This document shows positions 609 to 15,637 of a DNA stretch of 22,052 bases, in pieces. The stretch is from a virus. The notes beneath the pieces are model-generated. The model was given only the letters and a program-made list of their open reading frames with translations, made no database searches and had not been told where the DNA came from. The DNA is taken from positions 1 through 22,052 of the IMG/VR virus record IMGVR_UViG_3300044680_000100; one strand, 5' to 3'. Made by a program: the position numbers and the translations under genes. Within the stretch, counting starts at the first letter, position 1. Every line of letters begins with the position of its first letter.

Positions 609-652
609 GTTCAACTATCGTCACATCAACTTTAATGTGACTTTTGTTGAAC
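609..652 (-). promoter_or_regulatory. Two-tier inverted repeat upstream of the capsid gene
   Basis: Perfect arms GTTCAAC (609-615) and GTTGAAC (646-652) enclose perfect arms GTCACAT (620-626) and ATGTGAC (635-641). A 4-nt internal loop separates the tiers and an 8-nt centre separates the inner arms. As minus-strand RNA it would form a 14-bp hairpin just before the capsid start codon. No T-run follows on either strand, so a simple intrinsic terminator is unlikely. The inner arms and the 8-nt spacing recur at 5966-5985. The rest of the 136-nt gap (593-728) shows only a weak TTTCC/GGAAA hairpin near 697-713. Confidence 0.6.
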
Positions 653-728
653 CAAAGCGATTTACGACTTTAGGCTGAAAATAGTTCCGGGGATTTCCAG
701 GAGATGGAAAGTTGCTGGTATCGGAAAA

Positions 729-2333
729 TCAAGTCTGCCCCAATCTCTGAGCAGATCCGGGTAACAGCGACTCCATAAGCCTCGCCGATTCGGTCATCGG
801 TTTGACCGTTGGCGCAGGACTCGGAGGCGGGCTTGACCTGACCTTTGGCGATGCTGGCGGCACATTCGCCGGCGGTGTGGAAACCACTGGTGGTTGAGGG
901 GATGCCGGTGCTGCTGGATTTGGAGTTGCAACAACTTTCCCGCGCTTGGCCCGCGTGAACCCCGACTGTTCCAGCGATTTCAGTTCATTGTTGTACTGAA
1001 TATTCGCGTTGATGGCCAATAAATCGCGCACATCCTGATCGCTGAACGTGTAATAGGCGTTCGCATTGGCCGGATTCTGCGCGAGCGCCTGATTGTATTG
1101 CGCCAGGGGGAGGAACTGGCGGCCGTTCACCGTCGTCTCGCTCGCCGGTTTGCTCGCGTGAATCTGGCCCTGATGCTGCACGAAGTTGATCACGAAGTTC
1201 TGCACCGGGTCGGCTGGATTGCGCGCGACCAGTCCGTTGGCCAAGTTCAGGTAGGTGCGCCATGCATTGGACGCGCCTTGGAAGATCGGGGCCTCCACGC
1301 GGAACTCCTTGAGCGCCGCCTCGTAGCCCACATCGTTGATCCGCTGGGCGACCTCCTGGGGAATCGCCTCCATCGTGTTGGCGTCCGGCAGGCTGTCGGC
1401 AGAGGTCATCACCGCAGCCAGGTCGTGCATCTGCCGGTCGATATGCGGCTGCAACTCCTGGTTGCGAATCCGCTGGTTGGCCTCGTTTAACCGCGGCTGT
1501 AGTTCGGCGCGCACCTGTTCGACCCGCTGGTTGATCTCGTCGCCGGCGAAGTACAGGGCTTCGGCCTTGCGCTTCTGTATCGCCGATTTCCACTTTGGCT
1601 TGTTCGAGTTTATGAACGTGTCCAGTTCCTCCTGCGAGGCATTGGGATTCTTCGACGCGAAGTCCTCGACCTTTTTGAAATACTGCAATGTCTCCTGGCG
1701 CTTGCCCTTGAGTTCGGGGAACTTGGTTTCCGCGATGGCCGCGATCTCCAATTCGGCGCGCTGGTCGTCGTCAAGCGTGGCCAGCAATGCGGCCTCCGGA
1801 TCCGGGGCTGGAGGCGGCGGTGTCACAACCGGCGCGGGCGCTGGTGCTGGTGGAGGCGGTACAGCCAACGGAGCAGGCGGCGTGACCTTGCGCTGGAGCC
1901 GTGGCGCGGGGGCTGCGGCAGGCGCGGGAGCCGGGGCCGGTGGTGCTGGAGCCGCAGGAGCAGGCGCGGGAACCGCATTTGGGTCAGCCGGTGGCGGAGC
2001 AGCCTTCGCCGCCTTGTCCACCTCGGCCACGATCTCGCCCAATGTCTTTGGCACCTTGGGGATGTTCAGGACCAGCGGCTCTGGAGCGGGCTTGGGCGCA
2101 TCGACAATATGACCATCCGGGCCGAGCACCTTGTCCACGCTCTTGAGCAGATCGGACATGAACTTCTGGTTGCTGTCCGCAGCCGGTGGAGTCGGCGCAG
2201 GAGGCGCGTTCGGTGGAGGAGGTTCGACCGGGGGAGGCGGCGCATTCGGGATCGGTGGCGTGGCGGCCGCTGCGGAGACGACCGGAGTGGTTGATTGGAG
2301 TTGGGCTTCGGTGGGTGTGGGTGGGGGTGTCAT
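729..2333 (-). CDS. Proline-rich scaffold-like head protein (534 aa)
   Basis: The protein has a low-complexity Pro/Ala N-terminal part (about residues 1-185, with repeated PAPAPA and PPPP runs). A charged, helical middle follows (about 185-345), rich in Q, E, K and R with coiled-coil character, e.g. FINSNKPKWKSAIQKRKAEA. The C-terminus is again Pro/Ser-rich and ends LPGSAQRLGQT. It has no membrane segment or catalytic motif that I can see. Scaffolding proteins are typically helical, low in hydrophobic residues and encoded just before the capsid gene, which fits here; that is the basis of the call. The ATG at 2333 overlaps the TGA of the upstream gene (ATGA), so translation is probably coupled. 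A tape-measure or other structural role cannot be excluded. Confidence 0.5.
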   Translation of the reverse strand: MTPPPTPTEAQLQSTTPVVSAAAATPPIPNAPPPPVEPPPPNAPPAPTPPAADSNQKFMSDLLKSVDKVLGPDGHIVDAPKPAPEPLVLNIPKVPKTLGEIVAEVDKAAKAAPPPADPNAVPAPAPAAPAPPAPAPAPAAAPAPRLQRKVTPPAPLAVPPPPAPAPAPVVTPPPPAPDPEAALLATLDDDQRAELEIAAIAETKFPELKGKRQETLQYFKKVEDFASKNPNASQEELDTFINSNKPKWKSAIQKRKAEALYFAGDEINQRVEQVRAELQPRLNEANQRIRNQELQPHIDRQMHDLAAVMTSADSLPDANTMEAIPQEVAQRINDVGYEAALKEFRVEAPIFQGASNAWRTYLNLANGLVARNPADPVQNFVINFVQHQGQIHASKPASETTVNGRQFLPLAQYNQALAQNPANANAYYTFSDQDVRDLLAINANIQYNNELKSLEQSGFTRAKRGKVVATPNPAAPASPQPPVVSTPPANVPPASPKVRSSPPPSPAPTVKPMTESARLMESLLPGSAQRLGQT

Positions 2334-2596
2334 GGTGTTACGAGTTCGTAGGTTGCTTCAAAAATATCGGGTTTGCAGGGGTAGTACTCGCCTTTGATTC
2401 CGCGAATAATCCAGTCGCCGTCAGACGCTTTCATTTCGCCTTCGAGAGTTGGAATGGTGATCTCCCCGTCATGGAACAGCCATCCTTCGACATTGGCGCC
2501 CTGTTGGGCGAGCCAGTTCATCATGCGGTTGTTTCCGAATTCGGATTGAAATTTGATAGCCTCAATCAGGACGGGCTTCTTGCGATATTTGGCCAT
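2330..2596 (-). CDS. Small PGDYG-like phage protein (88 aa)
   Basis: The start chosen is ATG at 2596, giving MAKYRKKPVLIEAIKF. A longer frame reaches 2710 but its upstream part lies over another real small gene (2601-2780) and reads as shadow sequence. The C-terminal core KASDGDWIIRGIKGEYYPC (about residues 57-74), followed by KPDIFEATYE, matches from memory a widespread small phage family (PGDYG-type, function unknown). The next gene starts by ATGA overlap at 2333. A weak GGATAA sits 7 nt before the ATG and overlaps the upstream stop codon. The match is strong by eye; no function is claimed. Confidence 0.75.
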   Translation of the reverse strand: MAKYRKKPVLIEAIKFQSEFGNNRMMNWLAQQGANVEGWLFHDGEITIPTLEGEMKASDGDWIIRGIKGEYYPCKPDIFEATYELVTP

Positions 2597-2600
2597 AAAA

Positions 2601-2780
2601 TTATCCGGGTGAAGTTTGGAGCGAAACGTCATCGGCGACGGCTTTGCCAGCAGCTTCCCATGCGGCTTGAAGTTCGGGGGCTTGGGCTTGGAACGATGGC
2701 AGAGGTTCACCGCGAACAGATTTCCATTCGCGCGATTTGCAATACGCCTCGTAGGCGATTTCTCCGTGTGTCTTTTTCAT
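2601..2780 (-). CDS. Small conserved-looking phage protein (59 aa)
   Basis: The frame runs from ATG at 2780 to TAA at 2601-2603. The protein begins MKKTHGEIAYEAYCKSREWK, continues VRGEPLPSFQAQAPELQAAW and ends DDVSLQTSPG. The pattern AYEAYC, then G-x-PLPS, then a short helix around AAWEAAGKAV resembles from memory small phage proteins of unknown function. It fills the gap between the portal-like gene (stop at 2813) and the PGDYG-like gene, which starts 4 nt after its stop. The tight packing and protein-like composition support it. No function can be assigned. Confidence 0.65.
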   Translation of the reverse strand: MKKTHGEIAYEAYCKSREWKSVRGEPLPSFQAQAPELQAAWEAAGKAVADDVSLQTSPG

Positions 2781-2812
2781 GGTATGGGTTTGTTGTGGTT
2801 TACTGCGCTAAA

Positions 2813-5353
2813 TTATGGTGTTCCTTTTTTAGCCTTGTCGGACATGATGCGGTCTGCGTCGGTCGCCGGGTTCAGGCCAAGAGCTTTCTCAATTTGCGCC
2901 TGAATGCTGAACGGTGCCGCGTCGTATGGGATTTTGTCAACCGGACGCGCGTTTTTGGTCATCAAAGTCTGCACATGCCCGGCTAGTTCCGGGAGCAGCT
3001 TCAAATGATCAGCCACGTTCTTGTTGATGCCCTGCTGCTGCTGGGTCGCCTGCACATCCTGCTGAACTGACTGCGCGAGTTGCTGCAATCCTTTTTGCAG
3101 GCCATCCAACTGCTGCGCCATCTGCTTTTGCGGGTCCTGGCCGATGTCATTCGATTCGCCGGGTTTGAGTTCGAGGTTGAGGTCGATGCCAGCCCCGGAC
3201 ATGCGGACGATCTCGTTGGCGATCATGTAGAGTTTCTCCTTGCCCATCGCCTGCAAGATCACCGGGTTCTGGGTGAGCACGCCTACCAGTTGGACGAGCG
3301 TGTTCGCCGCCTGGGATTTGACCGCCCGTTCCTCGCCATCGCGGGAACTGAAATAGTAGTCGAAGATGAGATCGCGCGCGGTGCCTATGACGGTCATCCG
3401 GTCAAGGTCGCCGGGGGAAGACGTGCCCTCCTCGCTCTGATCGACAATCTCGAATCCGGCCTTCTTGATCGTCTCCTTGGTGTAGCGATCCTCCACCGGG
3501 CACTTGATCTTGCCCTGCGAGCAGGCGACCAGCGAGTCGTAGATGATCCGCTTCTTCGCATTCCGAAATTCGTTGATCGCCTGAGTCAAGTATGAGTAAA
3601 CCGAACTCGTGGTGCTGGCGATCTCGGTGACCTCAGTGGCAGAGATTTCGCGTGGCGCCGGTTGGCCGGTTTCCGCCGGCGACATGGCCATCAGCTTCTC
3701 GGCCATTGCGATGAGCTTGGCGATTGACTCGAAGATGGCTGTGAGCGACTGGCCAACTTTGGTATCCGAGACGACCATCACTTGGTCGGGCTTGATCCCC
3801 AATTCCTCTTTGAGCTTGGCCAATGAGAATTGATAAACGATGGGAGCGGATGACCAGTCGTGGCCCTTTAACCGCTGCTCTATCTGCTTCACCTGAGCCT
3901 CGTTCAGCGCATCCGTGTTGATCCCGATTGTCTTGAACGCCTCGTTCTTGCATATGATCAGCATCTGGTTAAACAGGTTCGTGAGTTGATCCTGATAGGC
4001 CATCAGTTCATGCGCCATCGACACGTTAACCATCCGGTCATCGTTGCAGTTCAGACTCAACACCGCGCACGGGCTGGAGGGCAGGATCTCGGCGAACACG
4101 ATGGTAGCGTCCGAGGCAACGATGAACCGGAACCAGACGGGGAACGGGTAGTCTCCGATCCCAAAATCCTTGGGCACCAGCTTCTCGAAATACTGGGTGA
4201 TCAACAACGACACATCGCCCTGATTGACGTTGTAAACTCCGATGTTCGCCGCCCGGTCATTCTCGCCCGCAGGGTCGGTGGTCGTTCCTTGCGGAAAGCT
4301 GGGTGGCGTGATATTGCCTACGAACTGGTCGAAATATGCCTTGTAGTTAAGGAAGATGCCGCCCATGCCCCAGAAGCGCGTGGACCAACCGATGGCATCC
4401 ACGTTGAAGAACGCCGGGTTGTACATCACGTCCTTGAACCGCACGATGTCCCAGTAGCCGATGAACTCACAACCGCTGTCGGTGTTAAGCGACGAAAGCG
4501 GATAGGCGTTGTCCCAGAACACGCGCGATGGATGTGGCTTGAACCACGGCAGACCCTCCTTCACCACCTCGGAGTCGAGATCGGAATTATCGGTCGGGGG
4601 CAGGTTGGAATCCAGTTCCTTGTCAATGGCCTTCTTCACCCACTGACGCTCCACATCCCACGCGCATTTCACGAAGTCCACCGACCGCGAGTAGAGGAAG
4701 GCGTCTCTCATGCACTGGACATCATGGTTGCGATAGCCGAACTGATCGGCCATCATGTCCACCCGTTGCGACAGCACATCGGCCCTGCACTTGCCGACCA
4801 GCCCGGTGGTTCGCGCCTCGTACGAATAGTACGGGTAGAGGTTGCCAAAAATGTTCGCCTGGGCGGAGAGCCGGCGGGTGACGAACGAGCGCACGATGTT
4901 GATATTGCACTCGAAGAATTTCGGGATGTCGATGTTCACCGGCTCGCCGCGGTCATTCTCGCGCACATGGTTCGTGTACGCCGCGCCACCGATTTTCTTG
5001 AGCGCGGTGGCCGCCGTCTGGATGTTGATATTCCCCTGCGCGTAGAGCAGCAGCGGGATGGTCGCGCGGGTGATCGCCGAGGTGTCCCATGCGAGATCGG
5101 CGGCGGCAAAGAACTGGTAATTGGTGAGCGAGCGAACGACGCCCTCGTCAATGCGCGCGCGAAACCGGCCCTCAAGCTGCTCACGATACGCGATGTCCTG
5201 CGTGTTCTTATTGGACATCAGCACACGCTGGCGAACCTCGTCCTCTGGCACGGTGGCTATGGCCTCGGCCTGCGAACGAGCCTTGGAGGTTAAGACTTCA
5301 CGGAGTCTCTTATTACTCGTACCAAAGCGTTCCAATATTTCCATCGAAATCAT
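2813..5353 (-). CDS. Portal-like protein (846 aa)
   Basis: The long protein lies between terminase and scaffold/capsid genes, the standard place for the portal, which forms the dodecameric ring at the capsid vertex through which DNA enters and leaves. Sequence features fit a large portal of the kind seen in podoviruses: an alpha-rich N-terminus (FGTSNKRLREVLTSKARSQA), a central alpha/beta part with PWFKPHPSRVFWDNAYPLSS (about residues 271-290), and a helical, Gln-rich C-terminal tail (about 755-800, e.g. LQQLAQSVQQDVQATQQQQG). At 846 residues it is longer than most siphovirus portals. ATG at 5353 overlaps the TGA of the upstream gene. No decisive motif exists for this family, so the call is by position, size and composition. 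Confidence 0.68.
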   Translation of the reverse strand: MISMEILERFGTSNKRLREVLTSKARSQAEAIATVPEDEVRQRVLMSNKNTQDIAYREQLEGRFRARIDEGVVRSLTNYQFFAAADLAWDTSAITRATIPLLLYAQGNINIQTAATALKKIGGAAYTNHVRENDRGEPVNIDIPKFFECNINIVRSFVTRRLSAQANIFGNLYPYYSYEARTTGLVGKCRADVLSQRVDMMADQFGYRNHDVQCMRDAFLYSRSVDFVKCAWDVERQWVKKAIDKELDSNLPPTDNSDLDSEVVKEGLPWFKPHPSRVFWDNAYPLSSLNTDSGCEFIGYWDIVRFKDVMYNPAFFNVDAIGWSTRFWGMGGIFLNYKAYFDQFVGNITPPSFPQGTTTDPAGENDRAANIGVYNVNQGDVSLLITQYFEKLVPKDFGIGDYPFPVWFRFIVASDATIVFAEILPSSPCAVLSLNCNDDRMVNVSMAHELMAYQDQLTNLFNQMLIICKNEAFKTIGINTDALNEAQVKQIEQRLKGHDWSSAPIVYQFSLAKLKEELGIKPDQVMVVSDTKVGQSLTAIFESIAKLIAMAEKLMAMSPAETGQPAPREISATEVTEIASTTSSVYSYLTQAINEFRNAKKRIIYDSLVACSQGKIKCPVEDRYTKETIKKAGFEIVDQSEEGTSSPGDLDRMTVIGTARDLIFDYYFSSRDGEERAVKSQAANTLVQLVGVLTQNPVILQAMGKEKLYMIANEIVRMSGAGIDLNLELKPGESNDIGQDPQKQMAQQLDGLQKGLQQLAQSVQQDVQATQQQQGINKNVADHLKLLPELAGHVQTLMTKNARPVDKIPYDAAPFSIQAQIEKALGLNPATDADRIMSDKAKKGTP

Positions 5354-5652
5354 ATCGTCATCAAATCCAGAGGTATCGCCGGCTCAACCTGCTTGCCGAC
5401 CTTGCGGTGCAAATGCCACTCCCGCAGGTAGTGAAAGTGCAACGCGATTGGCGTGGGAATGCGGCCATGCCTCATCGCCTGATTCACGTCCCGGCCCTTC
5501 GCTCCGACCAGGGCGAATAGTTCGATCACCTCGACGCCAAGCAATTTGGCCAACTCCTCGACCTTGCCCCACGGCCAGCCCTGGTCCAGGCCCATGATCC
5601 GGTAGTGCTCGCTGATGAGCACCATCGAAGGCGTTTGTCGAAAGCGGGCCAT
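5350..5652 (-). CDS. Small basic phage protein, HTH-like helices (100 aa)
   Basis: The protein begins MARFRQTPSMVLISEHYRIM. Residues about 29-52 (GKVEELAKLLGVEVIELFAL) read like the first two helices of a helix-turn-helix, and RHGRIPTPIALHFHYLREWH follows. It is encoded between the 102-aa protein and the portal-like gene, with a 4-nt ATGA overlap to the portal gene, so it belongs to the head operon. The HTH impression is weak and could be coincidental. A head-assembly accessory role is equally possible. I do not recognise the family. Confidence 0.6.
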   Translation of the reverse strand: MARFRQTPSMVLISEHYRIMGLDQGWPWGKVEELAKLLGVEVIELFALVGAKGRDVNQAMRHGRIPTPIALHFHYLREWHLHRKVGKQVEPAIPLDLMTI

Positions 5653-5961
5653 TCACTTTTGACCTTTGCGGCGAAGGGTGGTTAAGACGCTTACAGGTTC
5701 TTGCGCCAATGATCCTGGCGGGGTTGGGGATGGAGCAATCGTTACATTCCCTGGTTCCGGCTTGTCCTCTAGCTCGAAACCGTCGGGGACCACAGTGCCG
5801 GGGACGAAGTTGAAGCTGAGTCCCTTGAGAGGGTCTATGGACAGCACTTGAGCCTCGGCCTCGAACTTGAAAGTGTCGCCGGGATGCTTATCCGCGAGTG
5901 CTTCTCCGAGCGATGGATTTTTAAGGAAGTCCATCCAACCGTCTTGGTTCTGAGCATTCAT
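5653..5961 (-). CDS. Hypothetical head-operon protein (102 aa)
   Basis: The chosen start is ATG at 5961 (MNAQNQDGWMDFLKNPSLGE). A start at 5997 would run through the inverted repeat at 5966-5985 and nearly into the terminase stop, so it is less likely. The protein is acidic in the middle (KPEPGNVTIAPSPTPPGS) with a basic end (LRRKGQK). It has no recognisable domain. Its stop lies directly before the start of the next gene (5652), so the genes abut. The leader before the ATG is A/T-rich (gaatta), without Shine-Dalgarno. Function unknown. Confidence 0.6.
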   Translation of the reverse strand: MNAQNQDGWMDFLKNPSLGEALADKHPGDTFKFEAEAQVLSIDPLKGLSFNFVPGTVVPDGFELEDKPEPGNVTIAPSPTPPGSLAQEPVSVLTTLRRKGQK

Positions 5962-5965
5962 TAAT

Positions 5966-5985
5966 TCACATCTACATTTATGTGA
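5966..5985 (-). promoter_or_regulatory. Inverted repeat TCACAT-N8-ATGTGA before the 102-aa gene
   Basis: Arms TCACAT (5966-5971) and ATGTGA (5980-5985) are perfect inverted copies with an 8-nt centre. They lie in the 42-nt gap between the large terminase stop and the next start codon, only 4 nt from that ATG. The arms and spacing equal the inner tier of the repeat at 609-652. In RNA this would be a 6-bp hairpin next to the start codon; in DNA, a protein-binding dyad. Confidence 0.5.
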
Positions 5986-6003
5986 CAAGTTTGGCAAGCA
6001 GAA

Positions 6004-7596
6004 TCACGCACCCTCCCCGGCGAAGAAAACTGCAAGATCATTTAATCTTTCAGCGATGTTGTCCCTGCTCGGAAATCTTCCCGGCAGCAGCGTGAAGAAA
6101 TAGAGCGGGTAGCTCATTGAGTCGAACGAGTGCAGATGCACGGACTTCACCGGCTGCAATCCGATATTCAAATCATTCTCACCCGGCTTTGCCTTCTTCG
6201 AGATCATGCTCCTGAACATCTGCAAGGTCTTCCCGCAGGTCGCGCTGATCCTGATCGAATCGTCGAGGAACATATCGATCACCATGCTGATGCGCTCCAC
6301 CACACTCCCGCGCCCGCGAGGACACGAACGCAATTTGATTCTCCCTTTGCCGAGGCGTTCGATGATCGTCGCATCGTATGAGCCTTCGCTGTTCACCTGA
6401 TTGAAAGCATCATCGGGCGCGATGAACGTGTACTTGAACTCTGTGCCGCAAAGTTCATTCCAGAAATCGAGGCGATTAAGCAGCCGGGGGATCGCCGCAT
6501 GGTACGGGGTGTAACTTCCTACGAAATTTATTTCGTCAAACACACACCAGTAGTGTCGCTGTTCCTTGGCGATAAAAAACCTTTGGAGAAAATGAATCGA
6601 CAGGTTGACGCCGCCTGTGTCCATTCCGACGATCACCGGCTGCGATTTCAAAGGCTTCCACCCGATGCCTTTCGCCTCATCTCCCACGATGTGAATTTCG
6701 GGCATAAAGTACGGGCGAAAAATAGCGTCACCGGAGGGCCGGTCAATCCACAGACCTTCGATCATCCGCTTGCGCTCTATCGGGTCGCGGTATGATTTCT
6801 GCAAATGCTCGATGTGCCCCTGCGGTAGCCGGTGCAGGTTCTCATGCACCGGAACGTGGATGACGTTGAACGCCGGGTCGCGCTGGCCGGTCTTCTCGTC
6901 GGTGCAATCCGTGTAGAAGGTTTTGTAAACCCAGGATGACGGCCCCGTAGGATTGGCGGACGCGTACCATTGCTGGAGGTCAATACCACGCCGGCGGTTC
7001 AACTGCGCGGCGGTGTGGACGAAATAGGCGTCCGAATCGCAGTTGGTCAATTCCTCAATGTAGATGAAAGAGGGTGCCGGGCCTTTGATGCGCGGCTCGA
7101 CTGCGGAAGAAAATGGAATACTGATGATTAACACCATCGACCATCCTCCGTGCCGGTTGCCAATCCACAGGATGCGGTCCTTGGTGTCCGGATCTTGCCT
7201 TGATGCGGTGAAGTCCAGGCCGATGCCTTCATCCATATACTCGTCGGCGTGGGGATGCGGCTGGCCGTTCAGGAATGGCGGATATTTATTTCCATCGCGC
7301 CATGCCGGCAAGATCAGCGATTCAAGGTCATGGAGAATCCCGTACTTGCCGGTACGGATGGTCACGCCGATTACAAAAGCGAGTGCATCCTTGTTCTCGT
7401 AGCAGTGACGAACCAGCGAGTGGCCGCACGCCACAGTTTTACCACTCGCGCGCTCGCCATAAGCCAGTGTGAATTTCGCCGTTGAATCGAAGACCAGTTG
7501 CTGTGAAGGATTTAACTCCGGCCGCCAACCTTCGGCCTTGTTCGCCGGCTTGGGAGCGTGCTCCGGCGTCGAGTCCCATTCGGGCTGTTTAGCCAT
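6004..7596 (-). CDS. Terminase large subunit
   Basis: This is the ATP-driven packaging motor and nuclease (530 aa, typical size). The Walker A-like motif GERASGKT spans residues 47-54, and a Walker B-like FIYIEE lies at 177-182. After it, ASANPTGPSS (about 212-221) is the usual coupling segment. The C-terminal nuclease half has an RNase H-like set of acidic residues: VGMDTGG (D326), CVFDEINF (D354/E355) and IAPDDAF (395-396). It overlaps the 75-aa gene upstream by 8 nt and lies downstream of a small-terminase candidate, the usual order. MAKQPEWDST is the only sensible start. This is the most secure structural call in the window. Confidence 0.93.
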   Translation of the reverse strand: MAKQPEWDSTPEHAPKPANKAEGWRPELNPSQQLVFDSTAKFTLAYGERASGKTVACGHSLVRHCYENKDALAFVIGVTIRTGKYGILHDLESLILPAWRDGNKYPPFLNGQPHPHADEYMDEGIGLDFTASRQDPDTKDRILWIGNRHGGWSMVLIISIPFSSAVEPRIKGPAPSFIYIEELTNCDSDAYFVHTAAQLNRRRGIDLQQWYASANPTGPSSWVYKTFYTDCTDEKTGQRDPAFNVIHVPVHENLHRLPQGHIEHLQKSYRDPIERKRMIEGLWIDRPSGDAIFRPYFMPEIHIVGDEAKGIGWKPLKSQPVIVGMDTGGVNLSIHFLQRFFIAKEQRHYWCVFDEINFVGSYTPYHAAIPRLLNRLDFWNELCGTEFKYTFIAPDDAFNQVNSEGSYDATIIERLGKGRIKLRSCPRGRGSVVERISMVIDMFLDDSIRISATCGKTLQMFRSMISKKAKPGENDLNIGLQPVKSVHLHSFDSMSYPLYFFTLLPGRFPSRDNIAERLNDLAVFFAGEGA

Positions 7597-7816
7597 TGGG
7601 AGTCCCCGCTTGCACCGTAGTTGCCACTAACGCAGTTTGAAGCAGCGAGGCAAGCGCACAACGAGTGCGGATGCTCCCGGCGTCGTTCGTGTAGATGACA
7701 GGTTGGCCGGTCGTCGCGTGAAAACCCACGACACAAAACCCGTCAAAGTGTTCGGTGAGCCGCGCGCCCATCGCCTGGCCGAACTTCGCATATTCGTCTG
7801 GGGTCATAGTATTCAT
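7589..7816 (-). CDS. Small hypothetical protein between terminase subunits (75 aa)
   Basis: The protein begins MNTMTPDEYAKFGQAMG and has a short beta-rich centre (FCVVGFHATTGQPVIYTND), then a helix (ALASLLQTALVA). The start at 7816 overlaps the TGA of the small terminase gene by ATGA, and its end overlaps the large terminase start by 8 nt. That makes it a coupled member of the packaging operon. No motif gives a function. A second ATG three codons in would also serve as a start. Confidence 0.65.
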   Translation of the reverse strand: MNTMTPDEYAKFGQAMGARLTEHFDGFCVVGFHATTGQPVIYTNDAGSIRTRCALASLLQTALVATTVQAGTPNG

Positions 7817-8481
7817 GCCGGTGGATTTACCTGAACGTTTTGCGCCACGATGTTTGTCTGACTTTGTTTGGGGCCGAACGCGGTCTTGCCCTTGTGAGAA
7901 CCCTTACCCGCATCTTGGATGGCTTTGACTTTTGCATTCGCCACCCTCCCCCGGTTAATCATCTCCGCAGTATCCCTGAGCGCCTTGTGCAATCCCAGTT
8001 GGTGCTCGTATAATGCCTTCATCTCCTCCGGTGTGCTGCCCCGCTCATGCTCCTTGCGCACCTGGGCGTCCACCTCGTCGGCGATCTTCTTCAACTTGAT
8101 CGCCCGCTCAAAAACACTCCCGCCGATCACCGATTCACACAGTTGAGAATGCTGGCCGTACGCCTTGGCCAGGGCCATCATTTCGGTCGCCTCGGCGTCG
8201 GTGCCCATGATCGGCTGGACGATGCGGGCGAACTGTCGTTCATGGTCGGCCGCGATCTCAGCCTCGTTGACCTTGAGCTTCACGACTTCGCCATCCGCCT
8301 GCTTGAGCAGCACGATCTTGCGGTTACGATTTCCCCACAGCGACATGACCTCGGGAAGTTTGTGCATCCGCAGACTCAGCGCGTTGACCGTGATGCCCAG
8401 CAGTTCGGCGGCGATCTTGCGCTTGCCCTTGGCTTGGGTGAGCGCATCGTTGATCTTCTTGATTTCGTCGGCGTCGGCCAT
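7813..8481 (-). CDS. Putative terminase small subunit
   Basis: Residues 18-41 (KGKRKIAAELLGITVNAL and on) form a clear helix-turn-helix of FIS/HTH type. A long, charged helical part rich in E, K, R and A follows (about 60-190), then a flexible tail ending QTNIVAQNVQVNPPA. DNA-binding N-terminus plus helical oligomerisation region, directly upstream of the large terminase, fits a small terminase that recognises the packaging site. ATG at 8481 (MADADEIKKI) is preferred over ATG at 8502, because a good promoter (TTGACA, then TAGTGG) overlaps 8490-8518 and would leave 8502 upstream of transcription. It is the first gene of the leftward operon. Confidence 0.68.
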   Translation of the reverse strand: MADADEIKKINDALTQAKGKRKIAAELLGITVNALSLRMHKLPEVMSLWGNRNRKIVLLKQADGEVVKLKVNEAEIAADHERQFARIVQPIMGTDAEATEMMALAKAYGQHSQLCESVIGGSVFERAIKLKKIADEVDAQVRKEHERGSTPEEMKALYEHQLGLHKALRDTAEMINRGRVANAKVKAIQDAGKGSHKGKTAFGPKQSQTNIVAQNVQVNPPA

Positions 8482-8489
8482 TTGCAGAA

Positions 8490-8518
8490 CCACTAGCAGC
8501 ATTTCGTTGTGATGTCAA
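8490..8518 (-). promoter_or_regulatory. Leftward promoter of the packaging/head operon
   Basis: On the minus strand a consensus -35 TTGACA (8513-8518) is followed by 17 bp and a -10-like TAGTGG (8490-8495). The first ATG of the small terminase lies 8 nt beyond the -10 element, so the predicted transcript starts at or within about 2 nt of that codon. The -10 is a weak match to TATAAT, but TAGxxx recurs in the other promoter candidates here. Confidence 0.55.
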
Positions 8519-8571
8519 GTCATTGCGCGAGATGGTGTTGTGAGGAAAGCGAAAATATTTGCAAAAAGTGC

Positions 8572-8600
8572 TTGCGTTTCAAAACGAACTACCTCATAGT
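8572..8600 (+). promoter_or_regulatory. Rightward promoter of the recombination operon
   Basis: TTGCGT (8572-8577), a 17-bp spacer and CATAGT (8595-8600) form a sigma70-like promoter. The expected start point near 8607 coincides with the ATG of the first rightward gene, implying a leaderless message. A short dyad CGTTT-CA-AAACG (8575-8586) lies across the -35 and spacer and could be an operator. AAATATTT lies a little upstream. Confidence 0.5.
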
Positions 8601-8606
8601 CATAGC

Positions 8607-8786
8607 ATGGGCAAGCCCAATAAAATCAACGGATTTGAACGCGCAGTAATTTGGATGCCGACTGTTGAGCACGTCGCCGCCAAGGAAACCGCCGCTTCGA
8701 TCAAAACCTCCAAATCAAAATTCATGCGCTCCGGGATTCGCCGGGAAGTGGAGCGCGTCCGTAAATTAACCAAGACCACCACATGA
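8607..8786 (+). CDS. Putative ribbon-helix-helix small protein (59 aa)
   Basis: The protein starts MGKPNKINGFERAVIWMPTV. A short strand (AVIWMPT, 13-19) is followed by helix EHVAAKETAASIK and a second basic helix SKSKFMRSGIRREVERVRK (about 35-53). That order, with the SKxxFxRxxIRxE pattern, is typical of ribbon-helix-helix DNA-binding proteins such as MetJ/Arc-type repressors. It is the first gene of the rightward operon, next to a dyad in its own promoter, so autoregulation is plausible. ATG 8607 is chosen because the promoter predicts transcription starts there; a TTG at 8559 would lie upstream. Its TGA overlaps the next ATG (ATGA). Confidence 0.55.
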   Translation: MGKPNKINGFERAVIWMPTVEHVAAKETAASIKTSKSKFMRSGIRREVERVRKLTKTTT

Positions 8787-9820
8787 GCGAACAAAATGCA
8801 GAACATCTCGAAGTAGTCGCGCCGTCCGCCCTTGAGGCAATGGAGCGGGCCAATGTGGACATGCTCGTGTCAACGGCCAAGAAGTATCCCCGCGACATCA
8901 ATGTGTCCAAGCGCAACGCGCTGGCCATCGTCACCCTCGACCCGGAGACAGCCGCCGAGTGCTTCTTCAAATACGACCGTGGCGGCAAAACGATTCAGGG
9001 GCCGTCCATCCGGCTGGCCGAGATTGTCGCCTCGACCTGGGGAAACATCCGCGCCGGGAGTCGCACCATCCAGGAGACAGAAACCACGGTCGTCGCGCAA
9101 GGTTTCTGCCACGACACGCAGAACAATGTGTTCATCGCCAAGGAGGTCGAGCGCAAAATCTGCAACAAGGATGGCCGCAAGTTCAATGAGGACGTGATCA
9201 TCCTTACCAAAAACGCCAACTGCTCCATCGCCCTGCGCAACGCCGTATTTTCGGTCGTGCCGCGCGCGGTGATCAACACCATCTACGAGGAGGCGATCAA
9301 GGCGGCGGTCGGCGACATCAAGACGCTGGCCGAGCGGGTGACCAAGGCACTCTCCAAGTTCGCGGCAATGGGCATCGTCCAGGAGAAGGTGCTGGCCAAA
9401 CTTGGATTGCAGCGTGTGGACGAGATCACCGTCGAGCATCTCGAAACCCTGTATGGACTTTACACCGCGATCAACGAGAAGGAAACGACTGTTGACGAAG
9501 CATTCCCGGCGATCAAGAAAGGTGCGGCCGGTCAACAGCAGCCCGTTGACGCCCCAATCGGCGCCGAACCTCCTGCCGCCGCTACTGCCGCCACCGCTCA
9601 ATCGCAGTCACCCATTCCCGCACCCATCGCCGAGATCCGCCGCCGCGCCGAGACAGACGGGGTGACCGTGCCGCAGATCATCACCTACCTCAAGTCGGTG
9701 AAGTTGATGGACAAGAAGTCCACCGAGTTGGAGCAGATCACGGATGCCAATGCGCAGACGCTTATCGGGGCATGGAGTGGAGTTGTCGGAAAATTGCGGT
9801 CTATCAAGGTTGAGGTATGA
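8783..9820 (+). CDS. Putative phage single-strand annealing recombination protein (345 aa)
   Basis: The first 230 residues form the conserved core: AMERANVDMLVSTAKKYPRD, AIVTLDPETAAECFF, GGKTIQGPSIRLAEIVASTW, and NCSIALRNAVFSVVPRAVI. The last part is a small helical region (LAKLGLQRVDEITVEHLETL), then a Pro/Ala-rich linker and a short helical tail. From memory this belongs to a common phage family usually left as hypothetical or called RecT/SSAP-like. It is encoded with an exonuclease, a RecB-like nuclease and an SMC-like ATPase, which is the usual company of annealing proteins. The role (annealing of ssDNA during recombination) is inferred from context and weak resemblance, not from a catalytic motif. 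ATGA overlaps join it to both neighbours. Confidence 0.55.
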   Translation: MSEQNAEHLEVVAPSALEAMERANVDMLVSTAKKYPRDINVSKRNALAIVTLDPETAAECFFKYDRGGKTIQGPSIRLAEIVASTWGNIRAGSRTIQETETTVVAQGFCHDTQNNVFIAKEVERKICNKDGRKFNEDVIILTKNANCSIALRNAVFSVVPRAVINTIYEEAIKAAVGDIKTLAERVTKALSKFAAMGIVQEKVLAKLGLQRVDEITVEHLETLYGLYTAINEKETTVDEAFPAIKKGAAGQQQPVDAPIGAEPPAAATAATAQSQSPIPAPIAEIRRRAETDGVTVPQIITYLKSVKLMDKKSTELEQITDANAQTLIGAWSGVVGKLRSIKVEV

Positions 9821-10392
9821 TTCTTGTATTTGATACCGAGACGACGGGCAAAGCCGACTTCAATGCACCGATTGAGGCGTCTCACCAACCGCACATTGTC
9901 CAGATCGGGGCGCAACTACTGGACGACCAATATACCGTTCGCGGCGAGATCAATCTGATTGTAAAGCCAAATGGCTGGACAATTCCAGAGGAAGTATCGC
10001 GCGTTCACGGCATCACCACCGAGATCGCGGAGACGTTCGGATTCGAGTTGGAGCACGTCGCCGAACAGTTCGGGAGGATGGTATCCCGGTCGCACGTTCT
10101 AGTGGCGCACAACTTTTCGTTCGACAGCCTGCTGATTCACGCCGAATGGCATCGACTTGCATACAACGATCCGCCTTTCGAGGACGATCAGGTTAAATTC
10201 TGCACCATGCATGAGTCAACCGACATTGTTCGCATTCCCGGCAAGTATGGCGACTACAAGTGGCCTTCACTACAGGAGGCGCATCAATTCGCTTTCGGCG
10301 AGAAGTTCGAGGGTGCTCACGATGCGATGGCGGATGTGCGGGCCTGTGCGCGTTTGTACAAATGGCTTAAGACAAGGGAGGTCACGGTATGA
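9817..10392 (+). CDS. DEDDh 3'-5' exonuclease (DnaQ/RNase T family)
   Basis: All exonuclease motifs are visible: FDTETTG with D6 and E8 (Exo I), HNFSFD with D103 (Exo II) and GAHDAMADVRA with H168 and D173 (Exo III, DEDDh type). At 191 aa it is a stand-alone exonuclease domain like the DNA polymerase III epsilon subunit. It would remove nucleotides from the 3' end of DNA, for proofreading or end processing during recombination. It overlaps the genes on both sides by ATGA. Base composition and style match its neighbours. Substrate preference (DNA or RNA) cannot be told from sequence alone. Confidence 0.9.
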   Translation: MILVFDTETTGKADFNAPIEASHQPHIVQIGAQLLDDQYTVRGEINLIVKPNGWTIPEEVSRVHGITTEIAETFGFELEHVAEQFGRMVSRSHVLVAHNFSFDSLLIHAEWHRLAYNDPPFEDDQVKFCTMHESTDIVRIPGKYGDYKWPSLQEAHQFAFGEKFEGAHDAMADVRACARLYKWLKTREVTV

Positions 10393-11513
10393 GCGAAGAC
10401 ATTAGAGGCAGTTTACCCAGCGCGTCGGGCATATACAGATTGGTCGCCTGTGCCGGTAGTTGGCAGGCCGAAAAAGATCAACCCGATCTCCCCAAACAGG
10501 ATGTCACCGATTCCGGTACGGCCATTCACGCCGCCTTGGAGTCCGGCGATTCGAGCGAGTTGCAGGAGTCTGATGCCGAGGTCGCCGAACGGTTGGCCGC
10601 TTTGGAGAAGCGGGCGTTAGAGGAATGGATGACCACCAATGGCATCGACGCGGCTCCGGTGCGCCATGCCGAGGAGCGGGTGTGGGCGCGTAACCCAAAG
10701 ACGCTGGAGTTGTTGTTCAGCGCACAACTCGACGTTTACTACATCCATGAGCAGTTCGCGCTGGTTCTGGATTTCAAGAGCGGGTATCTTAATCCCACTC
10801 CCGCCGAATCCAACTGGCAGGTCGCGGCACAGTGCATCTGCCTCGTCTGCGAGAATAAACAGTTGCGCCACTTCACGGCCGGCATTGCCGCCTCACGCCT
10901 GACCTCGAAGCTGGACTTGACCATCTACGAGCCTCAGTCACTCCAGAACGCCGAGATTGAGATTCGCCGCGCCATCTGGAAGGCCAGTCAGCCGACGCCG
11001 CCGCGCTATCCGGGAGAGCATTGCCGGTACTGCAAGGCCAAGGGCGTATGCCCTGAAGCCGCTGCCTACTCCAGTGTCATCCTCCACAACGGATTGGTCC
11101 CCAAGCTGAACAAGCTGGGCATCGTCGAGGCGGTAGGACAGATGACGCCCATGCAGTTGTCGTGGGTGTTTCAACGATCAAAAATCGCTTCTCAGATATT
11201 CGACGCCTGCGAAGATCGCCTGAAGGCCATGCCTGAAGATCAGCTTGCGGCCGTCGGGTTGAAGTTGAAGCCGGGTGCAGTCCAGCGCAAGATCGCCAAC
11301 GTCGGCTCCGCAATCGAGAAGCTCCAGAGCACAACCGGCGTGACCGATGACATGGTTTACGATTGCCTGTCACTCAGCGTGTCCAAAGCGGAGGATATGG
11401 TCGGCAAGGCTCTCGACATCCCAAAGAAAAACCGCCGCGACAAGATCAACGAGGTGCTCGCCGGACTCATCACCGAGAAGCAAAATTCACCCAGTCTGCA
11501 AACCATCGACTAA
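10389..11513 (+). CDS. PD-(D/E)XK nuclease, DUF2800/Cas4-RecB-like, probable Fe-S cluster
   Basis: The nuclease core can be followed. GTAIHAAL (H47) matches the first motif. LDVYY (D115), VLDFKSG (D128, K130) and the later NWQVAAQ (Q144) are the D-x(n)-D/E-x-K and Q motifs of the RecB/Cas4 clan. C21 near the N-terminus plus C212, C215 and C221 (HCRYCKAKGVC) are spaced like the four cysteines that hold a 4Fe-4S cluster in AddB and Cas4. The family is known in phages as DUF2800. The enzyme would resect or cut DNA, probably together with the downstream ATPase and the upstream annealing protein. Its ATG overlaps the upstream TGA. It ends 4 nt before the next ATG. Confidence 0.82.
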   Translation: MSEDIRGSLPSASGIYRLVACAGSWQAEKDQPDLPKQDVTDSGTAIHAALESGDSSELQESDAEVAERLAALEKRALEEWMTTNGIDAAPVRHAEERVWARNPKTLELLFSAQLDVYYIHEQFALVLDFKSGYLNPTPAESNWQVAAQCICLVCENKQLRHFTAGIAASRLTSKLDLTIYEPQSLQNAEIEIRRAIWKASQPTPPRYPGEHCRYCKAKGVCPEAAAYSSVILHNGLVPKLNKLGIVEAVGQMTPMQLSWVFQRSKIASQIFDACEDRLKAMPEDQLAAVGLKLKPGAVQRKIANVGSAIEKLQSTTGVTDDMVYDCLSLSVSKAEDMVGKALDIPKKNRRDKINEVLAGLITEKQNSPSLQTID

Positions 11514-11517
11514 TACC

Positions 11518-12813
11518 ATGACCACCACACCAGAAAAAACCTACCGCATAGTCCGTCTCTCGGCCTCGAACATCAAGAGGCTCCGTGCAGTTTCAATCAC
11601 CCCCAAGACCAACGTGATCACCATCGGGGGCAAGAATGACAATGGCAAATCATCGCTGCTGGATAGCATCCTCTACGCCTGTGCCGGCGCATCGGCCACT
11701 TGCGAGCAGCCCATCCGCAAGGGTGCCAATGAGGGCGAGGTCATCCTCGACCTGGGCGACCTCGTGGTTACCAAGACGTTCAAAACCAACTCGTCTCCCA
11801 AACTCAAGGTTGAGATGAAGGGTGTCGCCGTTGGAAGTCCCCAGACCATCCTTGACCAGTTGATCTCCCGCGTGGCCCTCGAACCGCTGGCGTGGTTGAC
11901 CCTTAAGGCCGACAAACAGCTTGAGCTTTTGCGTAAACTGGTCGGCCTGGACTTCACCAAACTGGAGGCCGACAAGTCGGTCAAGTACACCCGGCGCACC
12001 GAGGTCAACCGGCAGATCGAGCAGAAGAAGGCGCAGCTTGCGGGTATGCCAGAGCATCCTGACGCACCTGCCGAGGAAGTGTCGGCCAAGTCGCTGATGG
12101 AGGAATTGCGGGCGGTGCAGAAGGTGAACAAGGACAATGCTGACATTCGCCAATCAGTCAACCTGTTGAATGACCGGGCTGTAGCCGCGCGCGACAAGGT
12201 GGTTGAATTCGACGATGACATCGCCGAGATGGAGAAGGCGCTTGAGTTGAAAAAGACCGGACGCGGGCTGGCTATCAAAGACCAGGAAGCCGCTGAGAAG
12301 GCGCATCAATCCGCACTCGCATCATCCCAACTGCTGGCCGATAAAGACGAAGCACCCATCCTCAAAAAAATTGAGGATAACGACGGCACCAACGCCAAGG
12401 TGCGGGCTAACCAGGAGCGTGCCAAGCTGGCCGCTCAGATCGAGCCGCTGGAAATCCAGTCCAAGTCACTCACGCTGGAGATCGACGCGCTGGAGGCGGA
12501 GAAGTCGCGGCAGTTGTCGGAAGCAAAGTTTCCGCTGCCAGGAATGTCCTTCGACGAGGCGGGGGTGTTACTCGACAATGTGCCTTTTTCCCAGGCTGGC
12601 ATGGCAAAGAAGATTCTCGCCTCGGTGGCCATCGCTATGGCCCAGAATCCCAAGCTACGGGTCATATTGGTGCGCGACGGCTCATTGCTGGACGACGAAT
12701 CGACACAGTTGCTCCACGACATTGCGGATAAGAATGACCTGCAAGTTTGGGTCGAGTGCGTGGGAACCAAGGACGTGTCAGTAGTTATCGAAGACGGCAA
12801 CCTTAAACAATAA
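11518..12813 (+). CDS. RecF/SMC-like ATPase (431 aa)
   Basis: The chosen start is ATG 11518 (MTTTPEKTYRIVRLSASNIK). A longer frame reaches back to 11347 but only through the upstream nuclease gene. Walker A is GGKNDNGKS (37-45), in the usual N-terminal RecF/SbcC context (SASNIKRLRAV, then LLDSILYACAG). The central third (about 160-330) is a charged coiled coil (EKALELKKTGRGLAIKDQEA). The end has a signature/Walker B-like block: SQAGMAKKILASVAIAMAQN, then LRVILVRDGSLLDDES. It is a short SMC/RecN type, as found in phage recombination cassettes, where it probably works with the nuclease next to it in an SbcCD-like manner (inference). Confidence 0.85.
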   Translation: MTTTPEKTYRIVRLSASNIKRLRAVSITPKTNVITIGGKNDNGKSSLLDSILYACAGASATCEQPIRKGANEGEVILDLGDLVVTKTFKTNSSPKLKVEMKGVAVGSPQTILDQLISRVALEPLAWLTLKADKQLELLRKLVGLDFTKLEADKSVKYTRRTEVNRQIEQKKAQLAGMPEHPDAPAEEVSAKSLMEELRAVQKVNKDNADIRQSVNLLNDRAVAARDKVVEFDDDIAEMEKALELKKTGRGLAIKDQEAAEKAHQSALASSQLLADKDEAPILKKIEDNDGTNAKVRANQERAKLAAQIEPLEIQSKSLTLEIDALEAEKSRQLSEAKFPLPGMSFDEAGVLLDNVPFSQAGMAKKILASVAIAMAQNPKLRVILVRDGSLLDDESTQLLHDIADKNDLQVWVECVGTKDVSVVIEDGNLKQ

Positions 12814-12858
12814 CTTTGCGAGCACACCGCCCGCAACCAACCAACCATAAACCAAGAA

Positions 12859-13206
12859 ATGAAAATCAACATCGACGAATTAACCATCAAGGAAGTCCGT
12901 GAATTGCAGGCGTTGCTAGGCAATGCTGCCACTCCCCAGTCACCTCACCCGTTCACCATCGGCGCGAATTACTTCATCCGCACCGTGACGCATCACCACA
13001 CCGGCAGACTGGTCGCGGTCGGAGACAAGGAGCTTGTCCTCGAAAACGCCGCGTGGATTGCCGACGACGGCAGGCTTACCGATGCGCTGAAATCCGGCAC
13101 GTTCAACGAAGTCGAAATGTTCCCGATTGACGCCAAGGTTATCGTTGGTCGCGGGAGCATTATCGACGCCCTGATCGTCTCGACGATTCCAACCTCTCAA
13201 AAATAA
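12859..13206 (+). CDS. Conserved-looking phage protein of unknown function (115 aa)
   Basis: The protein begins MKINIDELTIKEVRELQALL. Its core has the pattern YFIRTVTHHHTGRLVAVGDK, ELVLENAAWIADDGRL and VIVGRGSIIDALIV, ending IPTSQK. It looks well folded and beta-rich, and I recall similar phage proteins with TGRLV, AAWIAD and VGRG motifs but no function for them. A short N-terminal helix precedes an Ala/Pro linker. The start lacks a Shine-Dalgarno; the 45-nt leader is A/C-rich. Its TAA overlaps the ATG of the hexamer-repeat gene (TAATG), suggesting the two are translated together. Confidence 0.72.
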   Translation: MKINIDELTIKEVRELQALLGNAATPQSPHPFTIGANYFIRTVTHHHTGRLVAVGDKELVLENAAWIADDGRLTDALKSGTFNEVEMFPIDAKVIVGRGSIIDALIVSTIPTSQK

Positions 13207-13424
13207 TGAACGCTGCAATAGCATTTGAAGGATGGTCGCGGTCGTGGTCGCGGTCGTGGTCGGGGTCGTGGTCGTGGTCGGGGTCGCGGTCGTGGTCGCG
13301 GTCGGGGTCGGGGTCGTGGTCGTGGTCGTGGTCGGGGTCGCGGTCGTGGTCGCGGTCGTGGTCGTGGTCGGGGTCGCGGTCGTGGTCGCGGTCGTGGTCG
13401 TGGTCGTGGTCGGGGTCGCGGTAG
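13206..13424 (+). CDS. Low-complexity (W/R/G)-S repeat protein (72 aa)
   Basis: Starting at the ATG that overlaps the upstream TAA, the frame gives MNAAIAFEG, then alternating X-Ser dipeptides with X = Trp, Arg or Gly up to TAG at 13422-13424. Every second codon is TCG. The variable sixth base of each GGTCGN unit is the first base of the alternate codon, so it sets W, R or G. The stop-start coupling and the non-repetitive nine-residue lead favour this frame over the other two open plus frames (Gly-Arg from TTG 13225, Val-rich from ATG 13232). I recall similar low-complexity phage proteins after homologues of the upstream gene, unverified. It may be untranslated; function unknown. Confidence 0.4.
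   Translation: MNAAIAFEGWSRSWSRSWSGSWSWSGSRSWSRSGSGSWSWSWSGSRSWSRSWSWSGSRSWSRSWSWSWSGSR
13234..13424 (+). repeat. GGTCGN hexanucleotide tandem repeat, 31 units
   Basis: Thirty-one perfect GGTCG cores in a row at 6-bp spacing run to 13419, with a broken copy at the end. The sixth base in order is CTCTGTT GCTCGGTTT GCTCTT GCTCTTT GC; it is never A. The internal GCTC-start blocks show a higher-order repeat of 36-54 bp, pointing to stepwise duplication. The tract is strongly G-rich on the plus strand and has no stop codon in most frames of both strands. Confidence 0.95.
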
Positions 13425-14314: not shown

Positions 14315-14584
14315 ATGACCATTCAAGAACTCCAATCAATCCACCGCAGACTCGGAAACCAGTGCTGGTGCCGCTGGTGGGCGAATTTCGGAGAGCGTCG
14401 GGAGAATATCCTGATGGCCATTCAATGCCTCTCCGTGGAGGCTAATGGCCGATTCAAACCGACCCACACCGTCGGCATGATCGAATTGGGATTCACCGTC
14501 GATCCCGGGACGCCGCTGCGCTACATTTACACGATCCCGCGCACGAACGAGGACGGCTCGCCGTATGTGTCTGAACTGTTTTGA
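14315..14584 (+). CDS. Hypothetical phage protein (89 aa)
   Basis: ATG 14315 gives MTIQELQSIHRRLGNQCWCR. A TTG at 14276 would add 13 residues but lies inside the previous gene. The sequence then runs ENILMAIQCLSVEANGRFKP and a beta-rich part GMIELGFTVDPGTPLRYIYT, ending GSPYVSELF. Composition is protein-like, with no motif I recognise. It is followed 3 nt later by a 26-codon frame. Confidence 0.6.
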   Translation: MTIQELQSIHRRLGNQCWCRWWANFGERRENILMAIQCLSVEANGRFKPTHTVGMIELGFTVDPGTPLRYIYTIPRTNEDGSPYVSELF

Positions 14585-14587
14585 AAT

Positions 14588-14668
14588 ATGGACTACCAAC
14601 AATTCATCGAAGCGAAACAATCCGAACAGGACACGCTCTTCGCGGAAGGGGCTGAAAATAATGTTTGA
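14588..14668 (+). CDS. Possible micro-protein (26 aa)
   Basis: ATG 14588, 3 nt after the preceding stop, opens MDYQQFIEAKQSEQDTLFAE and ends with TGA at 14666-14668. The peptide is acidic and helix-forming, plausible as a tiny phage protein. Its end overlaps the -35 of the promoter at 14665-14694. The leader is A/T-rich, without Shine-Dalgarno. There is no independent evidence for expression. Confidence 0.35.
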   Translation: MDYQQFIEAKQSEQDTLFAEGAENNV

Positions 14669-14694
14669 CAATCGCACGAACTTGGGCGTAGAGT
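14665..14694 (+). promoter_or_regulatory. Promoter for the candidate small RNA
   Basis: A consensus -35 TTGACA (14665-14670) is followed by an 18-bp spacer and TAGAGT (14689-14694). The expected start is near 14701. The element resembles the candidate at 19191-19218 (TTGACAAT-G-CAC, then TAGATT). No start codon with a protein-like frame follows before the terminator at 14769-14806. Confidence 0.6.
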
Positions 14695-14700
14695 GCGGGC

Positions 14701-14806
14701 AGACGGTGCCACTGGTAAGGACGGCAACGATTCGCAGATTTGGGGTTGGTGCGTCCAACCTCCTTCCGAACCCGTATCGCTCTTACCGGCGAGCGGGTTT
14801 CTTTTT
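14701..14806 (+). ncRNA. Candidate phage small RNA (about 105 nt)
   Basis: Promoter and terminator frame a segment of about 105 nt with no credible protein frame. It contains a perfect 6-bp hairpin GGTTGG-TGCGT-CCAACC (14744-14760) and ends in an intrinsic terminator. GGTAAG (14714-14719) is complementary to CTTACC (14782-14787), part of the terminator stem and loop, so the 5' end could form a pseudoknot with the terminator or compete with it. That could make it either an independent small RNA or a conditional terminator in front of downstream genes. The ends are inferred from the promoter and T-run only. I do not recognise a known RNA family. Confidence 0.45.
14769..14806 (+). terminator. 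Intrinsic terminator
   Basis: AACCC (14769-14773) and GCTC (14779-14782) pair with GAGC (14791-14794) and GGGTT (14795-14799) around loop TTACCGGC, with bulge GTATC on the 5' side. A T-rich run TTTCTTTTT follows (14798-14806). It is the clearest intrinsic terminator in the window. The bulge weakens the stem somewhat. Confidence 0.7.
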
Positions 14807-14828
14807 GCCCATCAAACCGTCCAGCAAC

Positions 14829-15119
14829 GGCCAACCGGCGCTAACGCTGCGCTGCGGGGCCAAAACACGGCGGGCATACTTGTCAGACCCGCTCAAAGAT
14901 TTGGTGACTATTGGCGAGAAGCCCGTTAGCACCAGCTTATTTCACGCGCCTGCTTCAAGGCTGAGGCTTCCGAATGACGGAGGTGTGCCAAAGGTGAAAT
15001 CAAAACTGCGAACGATACCGAGCCTATGGAATGGCTGCAAGGCAGTGGAGCGGGTCTTGACAGACCTTCTCTGCACCGAACCCGTCCTTGGAATTGCTGT
15101 AAAGCACTCATGCGAGTGC
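14829..15119 (+). ncRNA. Dense hairpin region, candidate structured RNA
   Basis: No convincing protein gene occupies 14669-15172. Within it I can pair: GGCC-aa-CCGGCGC with GCGC-tg-CGGGGCC (14829-14861, 11 bp); TGTCAGACCCGCTC (14881-14894) with GAGCGGGTCTTGACA (15049-15063), 14 bp with one bulge, closing about 155 nt; inside this GGTG-CTA-GGC with GCC-TAG-CACC (14903-14933, 10 bp) and ATTTCAC (14939-14945) with GTGAAAT (14994-15000). The 3' closing arm can instead form GGTCT-TGAC-AGACC (15053-15066). A last hairpin GCACTC-ATGC-GAGTGC is at 15104-15119. The set suggests a structured RNA or a folded 5' leader for the gene at 15173. A single-strand-dependent DNA function (origin) is the alternative. 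Confidence 0.4.
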
Positions 15120-15172
15120 GATTCAATGAGAATGAGAGAGAACACCAGCTTGCGGCAGAGCGAACCACCACA

Positions 15173-15637
15173 ATGAACCCAAACCAGACCGATTCTCTAA
15201 ACGCTCTCAAATCCATGCTTGCCCCTATTTACAATTCAGAGCGCCGATGGTCATACGAGGAGGAGTGCGGGCTGCTGCTCCTGATGCGAGTTCCCAACTA
15301 TTTGGAGGAGGTAGCGCAGGTGCTCGAATACTGGAAATCCCTGCCACCGCACGGCAAGCATCTGTTTCCGCGTTCGATGCAGAGGCTTCTGAGCGACTGG
15401 ACGGGCGTTCTGGACAATGCGGCAGTGGCCGCGCGCACCGCAGAGACGCCAGAGCCGGCCACAGCATCGCAAAAGATTCTGTGGCACTCCGAATTGAAAC
15501 GTGTCGATAAGCGCATGAAATCCCTGAAGGATTCCTACTCTGAGAATACGAACTGGTCTGACAGCGACCGCGTGGAATTCAAGACGCTGCGTGAACGGAA
15601 GAAAGCTTTGCTCGAAAAACTTGGGATGATAGTCTGA
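15173..15637 (+). CDS. Helical protein of unknown function (154 aa)
   Basis: ATG 15173 gives MNPNQTDSLNALKSMLAPIY. The frame is open back to 15026, but the upstream part is translated hairpin sequence and looks unnatural. Residues 25-85 are helical (YEEECGLLLLMRVPNYLEEV, LLSDWTGVLDNAAVAART). The C-terminal half (about 100-154) is a charged coiled coil (HSELKRVDKRMKSLKDSYSE, LRERKKALLEKLGMIV). It may follow a long structured leader (14829-15119). No Shine-Dalgarno is visible. I do not recognise the family. Confidence 0.6.
   Translation: MNPNQTDSLNALKSMLAPIYNSERRWSYEEECGLLLLMRVPNYLEEVAQVLEYWKSLPPHGKHLFPRSMQRLLSDWTGVLDNAAVAARTAETPEPATASQKILWHSELKRVDKRMKSLKDSYSENTNWSDSDRVEFKTLRERKKALLEKLGMIV

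Follow-up and report, generated by a model that had tools for sequence, protein, structure and literature searches.

Known RNAs and the phage locus

Phages P1 and P4 make the C4 antisense RNA, a short phage RNA produced upstream of a long leader, and the packaging RNA (pRNA) of phage phi29 has loops that are complementary to each other within one molecule and that, by pairing between molecules, give a ring on the portal. Kissing-loop RNAs of phages or mobile elements are exemplified by ROOL and GOLLD (PMC12286853). The alphaR14 or cuckoo RNAs, e.g., NfeR1 in rhizobia, act on ribosome binding sites by base pairing and have three hairpins, each with an identical unpaired CCUCCUCCC (PMC10746234). 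In uncultivated phages most structured RNAs are unknown, since their letters diverge faster than their folds.

At the phage locus considered here, the evidence is evenly balanced on whether the segment 14665-14806 encodes a new small regulatory RNA of the phage, with a structured RNA downstream of it. The sequence comparison below makes it quite probable that these phages have a structured small RNA built in this way, and the RNA is apparently new. Like C4 it would be short and located 5' of a long leader; unlike C4 it has no match to the Rfam C4 family and no matching target in the leader. With the phi29 pRNA and the kissing-loop RNAs it shares complementary loops within one molecule, found here in three phages, and hence a potential loop-loop pairing, but fold and size are different, and one of the loops caps a terminator. 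With alphaR14 it shares three hairpins, stems that vary in their letters and an unpaired CU-rich motif resembling an anti-Shine-Dalgarno sequence (PMC10746234). In contrast to alphaR14, CCUCCUCCC is not found in all three hairpins; there is instead a single, variable motif, CCUCCUUCC, in the linker between hairpins 2 and 3, and a loop that matches that of the terminator.

Coding status of the region 14669-15172

The window is an entire IMG/VR virus record of 22,052 nt. Codon usage was scored after training on the genes of the window, one of them entered out of frame, so that the score is slightly weakened. It stays positive as far as 14584 and becomes so again at about 15173. Both neighboring genes are clearly positive, while in 14669-15172 each of the six frames scores about zero or below. 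This bears out the claim of the initial annotation that the region lacks a protein gene, although a 203-codon open frame at 14565-15176 (+), which spans the whole non-coding region, had gone unmentioned. Such a run of codons without a stop is what a protein gene would require, but the frame is without codon bias, it has no relative in Pfam, PHROGs or the phage, viral and genome collections, and a 13-bp terminator lies within it, so that a protein gene here has negligible probability. A possible frame of 26 codons (14588-14668), read from the sequence, lies just ahead of the region.

The region has no match in Pfam or PHROGs and no DNA or protein relatives in the phage, plasmid, viral and genome collections. 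None of the Rfam 15 families, C4 included, exceeds its gathering threshold in the window, in a scan that the initial annotation had proposed; on L165, L088 and L279, three viral contigs discussed below, the sole Rfam 15 match is a tRNA of L088. The virus is also present in another assembly, with a terminase that is 100% identical; by match position this assembly covers about 1402-13347 and excludes the region. By the same measure it ends inside an array, located between two genes at 13233-13422, in which the hexamer TGGTCG occurs about 32 times.

A promoter-to-terminator unit in three phages

The unit was compared with those in two viral contigs, L088 (IMGVR_UViG_3300009175_000043, also L008) and L165 (IMGVR_UViG_3300047463_000320). 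Its parts in the window are as follows.

14665-14694, + strand: promoter TTGACA, 18-nt spacer, TAGAGT; 10 of 12 consensus positions matched, by itself not above chance.
14701-14806, + strand: candidate small RNA, about 106 nt long when counted from the start that the promoter implies; fold and length alike in three phages.
14704-14729, + strand: hairpin 1, with loop GGUAAG (14714-14719) complementary to the terminator loop in the three-phage comparison.
14744-14760, + strand: hairpin 2, GGUUGG-UGCGU-CCAACC; six pairs kept in all three phages, pairs 4 and 5 different in all three.
14761-14767, + strand: pyrimidine linker UCCUUCC, a possible seed; flanks included, it reads CCTCCTTCCGAA both here and in L165, and ACCCUCCC in L088.
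14768-14806, + strand: intrinsic terminator of 8 bp, 1-nt bulge, 5 bp, loop CUUACC (14782-14787) and U run.

An RNA of about 106 nt would thus be transcribed from its own promoter, ended by the intrinsic terminator and released as a free-standing molecule. The loop of its 5' hairpin would pair with the terminator loop to give a closed fold, with hairpin 2 and a pyrimidine-rich single strand in between. The initial annotation had referred to part of this unit as the first terminator; the best-supported element is the whole promoter-to-terminator RNA.

The relatives were reached by two routes. Alignments of the ATPase gene (11518-12810) and the phrog_3657 gene (8783-9817) led to about 150 viral contigs, among which the record of L088 is the nearest relative, with 68% identity in the phrog_3657 gene and 45-46% in two others. 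A covariance model (R1) of the single stretch 14695-14812 has its best match in 50 complete records, at 24.3 bits, in this same record, and its next at 14.4 bits; in 50 further records there is nothing at E up to 0.05, and in 1.3 Mb of loci the best score is 9.3 bits. To gauge how far a similar terminator alone raises the score, all viral contigs were scanned for the terminator stem, which gave 118 stretches, and on the 80 of these that were listed R1 scores at most 18.6 bits, the closest relative excepted. L165 was picked by the terminator stem only, yet it carries CCTCCTTCCGAA directly 5' of its terminator. It scores 13.1 bits with R1, no better than other contigs bearing this terminator, and no proteins common to it and the window are detectable.

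Single-sequence searches do not connect the window, L088 and L165. A further pattern scan, which asked for the linker together with the terminator, gave no additional member; closer relatives were found neither through the downstream gene nor through A2 in bacterial genomes, and the terminase leads to the same virus only. In all, about 5 Mb of records were searched in addition to the pattern scans. Several candidates were set aside: the linker match of L154 sits in coding sequence, L276, L277 and L278 were not judged members, L279 has a terminator with CCTCCTTCC in a layout that does not match, and the terminator-loop match of L188 (IMGVR_UViG_3300001598_001538) looks like an unrelated CRISPR-type RNA. 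At about 260-288 of this last viral contig, AATTTCTACTGTTGTAGAT, which resembles a Cas12a-type direct repeat, precedes the terminator.

Counted from the inferred start, the three sequences fold alike, with a hairpin at about 3-30, a spacer of 11-12 nt, a 6-bp hairpin from 41-44, a pyrimidine linker of 7-8 nt and a terminator from 67-69. From the -35 box through the T run, the unit measures 142 nt in the window, 141 nt in L088 and 144 nt in L165. The promoter of L088 is TTGACC-17-TATGTT; L165 has a weaker TTGCAC box at an equal distance from its terminator. The terminator of L088 is built as in the window (8 bp, 1-nt bulge, 5 bp, 6-nt loop), and that of L165 has a 14-bp stem without bulge and a 7-nt loop. 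Hairpin 2 is closed by GGUUGG/CCAACC in the window, by GGUGUG/CACACC in L088 and by GGUCCG/CGGGCC in L165, and in the upper terminator stems the letters differ in all three phages while the pairing is kept in all three.

Consider now the two loops. In the window, GGUAAG in hairpin 1 is complementary to CUUACC in the terminator. The corresponding match in L088 is GUAGCA:UGCUAC, inside a perfect match of 12 nt, and in L165 it is UCGCU:AGCGA, with only five contiguous pairs. The distance from the hairpin 1 loop to the terminator is 54, 52 and 54 nt in the window, L088 and L165, respectively. Each loop pairs best with its own partner: the own pairings have energies of -15.3, -19.1 and -16.1 kcal/mol, compared with -6.1 to -12.4 kcal/mol when partners are swapped between phages. 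The summed loop-loop energy of the three phages is reached in none of 20,000 shuffles. For the contact in the window taken alone, 1.7% of shuffles do as well when judged by exact loop match and 14% when judged by duplex energy; for the 5-nt match of L165 the figures are 39% by match length and 2.7% by energy. The test was devised after the three sequences had been seen, and n = 3; neither L088 nor L165 was selected for the loop-loop feature. The case for a loop contact is therefore made by the three phages taken together and by the way in which L088 and L165 were chosen, since L165 alone is weak. Among 249 distinct terminators (3.0 Mb), hairpin 2 combined with a loop match occurs in the three units and in one weak case. 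At the level of sequence, then, layout, spacing and a co-varying loop-loop complementarity are common to the three phages. The element is invisible to Rfam, BLAST and folding energy, and the comparison reveals it as a compact RNA in which the two loops co-vary.

From the window alone, one could instead assume ordinary intergenic sequence. Decayed DNA would then lie behind an internal promoter and a strong terminator, and the resemblance to two other phage contigs would be accidental. Folding energy is near chance, the promoter and terminator counts in the window are within those of shuffles, and relatives are few, all as this assumption predicts. It does not account for the recurrence of layout, spacing, matching loops and an identical 12-nt linker in sequences not selected for them, nor for the compensatory pairs, and it is unlikely, though far from negligible.

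The loop contact may stabilize the fold, join two molecules or alter termination. The last case corresponds to an attenuator or riboswitch-like leader, where pairing between the hairpin 1 and terminator loops sets read-through into 14808-15172 and the gene at 15173, and where the downstream domain is part of the control. Promoter, terminator, structured leader and gene are all on one strand, and the L165 unit likewise precedes a long non-coding stretch and then a same-strand gene. In L088, however, the unit is followed by only one very short frame and then by a convergent integrase, which argues against an operon leader, and the lower 8 bp of the terminator would stay intact under the loop contact; the attenuator is rather unlikely. 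If the loops of hairpin 1 and terminator were to pair between molecules, dimers or rings would form, and the locus would hold a self-assembling phage RNA with the hairpin of its own terminator at its core, and downstream of it another new structured RNA; this is improbable.

A C4-like antisense immunity RNA of the P1/P4 type would silence the downstream leader of its own operon. It would be a short terminated RNA 5' of a long leader, as here, and its sequence pairs would change fast and still match, as the loops do. Against it stand the missing Rfam C4 match and the ordinary complementarity to the leader of the region before hairpin 2 (14724-14746), for which 66 of 218 blocks in the window are as good; that of the whole RNA is equally ordinary among window blocks. 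A particular antisense pairing, 14731-14742 with 15001-15012 (12 nt, one mismatch), was rejected since its duplex energy is ordinary. The C4-like mechanism is thus very improbable.

The downstream stretch 14862-15000

Returning to the preferred reading, a small RNA with a structured RNA downstream, the stretch 14862-15000 is likely, as judged from two sequences, the window and L165, to be a structured RNA with a homologue in L165. It has two blocks.

14862-14899, + strand: block 1, AAAACACG, stem (14870-14874/14888-14892), TCAAAGA; L165 8649-8687, two of five pairs compensatory.
14939-15000, + strand: block 2, helix 14939-14945/14994-15000 around GGC 14965-14967 / GCC 14987-14989, UUCCGA and AGGUGU; L165 8709-8763.

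The 5-bp stem of block 1 goes from GCGGG/CCCGC in the window to GGGAG/CTCCC in L165, with both sides changed in two pairs. In block 2, AGG-N-UUCCGA..AGGUGU-N'-CCAAA.GUG, the pair N/N' is C/G in the window and G/C in L165, and the helix around it, UUCAC/GUGAA in the window, is UCCAC/GUGGA in L165, in a register that was read from the sequences and is not recovered by MAFFT. Local alignment of 14808-15172 with L165 8551-9000 gives a score of 70, reached by none of 500 dinucleotide shuffles (mean 39, maximum 63); among 3138 other segments with a comparable composition, one does as well. When gaps are penalized more strictly, the score becomes 202, and five of 5326 segments equal or surpass it, so that the similarity rests on a probability near 0.001 at a site nominated by the upstream unit. 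The combined block scores are reached by one of 8368 segments, a figure that is somewhat too favorable, since the blocks were chosen after alignment. A model of the downstream stretch (R3), run on 1.2 Mb of loci and on 50 records, has no further match, and L088 has no similarity to 14862-15000 downstream of its unit.

These changes bear on the helices drawn in the initial annotation, all of which can be formed. L165 supports the nested helix 14939-14945/14994-15000, with one compensatory change, and a hairpin near 14903-14933. The 14-bp helix 14881-14894/15049-15063, proposed to close the domain, has no counterpart in L165 and is incompatible with the stem 14870-14874/14888-14892, which shows compensatory changes there. 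Because of both, the suggested two-state switch is unsupported. A model (R2) of the minimum free energy fold of 14876-15068 returned nothing. As a 14-pair, one-bulge helix (14881-15062) it is rare for a region of such length, being equalled in one of 100 region shuffles; the window has two helices of this kind, the other one (15 pairs) within the portal gene, compared with 0-2 in each of six shuffled windows. The segment that it bounds has z = -3.6, with ends picked after the fact. The hairpin at 14829-14861 forms with 10 pairs in the minimum free energy fold, where 11 had been claimed, and is unremarkable (z = -1.4). GGTCTTGACAGACC, taken up from the initial annotation, is present, and the repeat CCGAACCCGT does occur twice, at 14766-14775 and 15076-15085, the latter having been quoted two bases off.

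The minimum free energy of 14669-15172 is -185.9 kcal/mol, compared with -174 ± 6.5 kcal/mol for shuffles, nine of 300 of which are as low (z = -1.82). Folding against shuffled controls, the check proposed initially, therefore places the whole region near chance, and 200-nt windows across it have ordinary folding energy. That the region holds an undescribed structured RNA is thus supported by comparison and not by folding energy. A replication origin or other DNA element had also been suggested, and a long non-coding stretch with imperfect repeats could suit one, but G+C is about 0.56 without an A+T-rich part, GC skew does not turn there, iterons are not seen, and the compensatory changes point to RNA; this suggestion can practically be dismissed.

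The 6-bp hairpin at 15104-15119 (GCACTC-ATGC-GAGTGC) holds in its loop an in-frame ATG at 15110, at which the gene read from 15173 might alternatively start.

Possible functions and other features

The chances are even that the small RNA regulates by base pairing. The exposed UCCUUCC (ACCCUCCC in L088) could then be the seed, directed at Shine-Dalgarno-like sites in phage or host mRNAs; that the linker is the seed is conceivable but doubtful, and by duplex energy it pairs with the gene starts of the phage itself no more strongly than with random 28-mers. The stretch 14862-15000 could serve as leader to the gene at 15173, or it could be made together with the small RNA on terminator read-through. 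If confirmed, the RNA would be an additional family, with an unusual contact between hairpin and terminator, and phage regions now filed as empty or as spurious genes would be resolvable with few relatives.

Elsewhere in the window, the strongest folding signal (z = -4.5 to -6) belongs to a long hairpin at 592-671 (-), with nested GUUCAAC/GUUGAAC and GUCACAU/AUGUGAC, which ends just 5' of the ATG (592-590) of a structural-cluster gene and is a candidate for translational control of this adjoining minus-strand gene.
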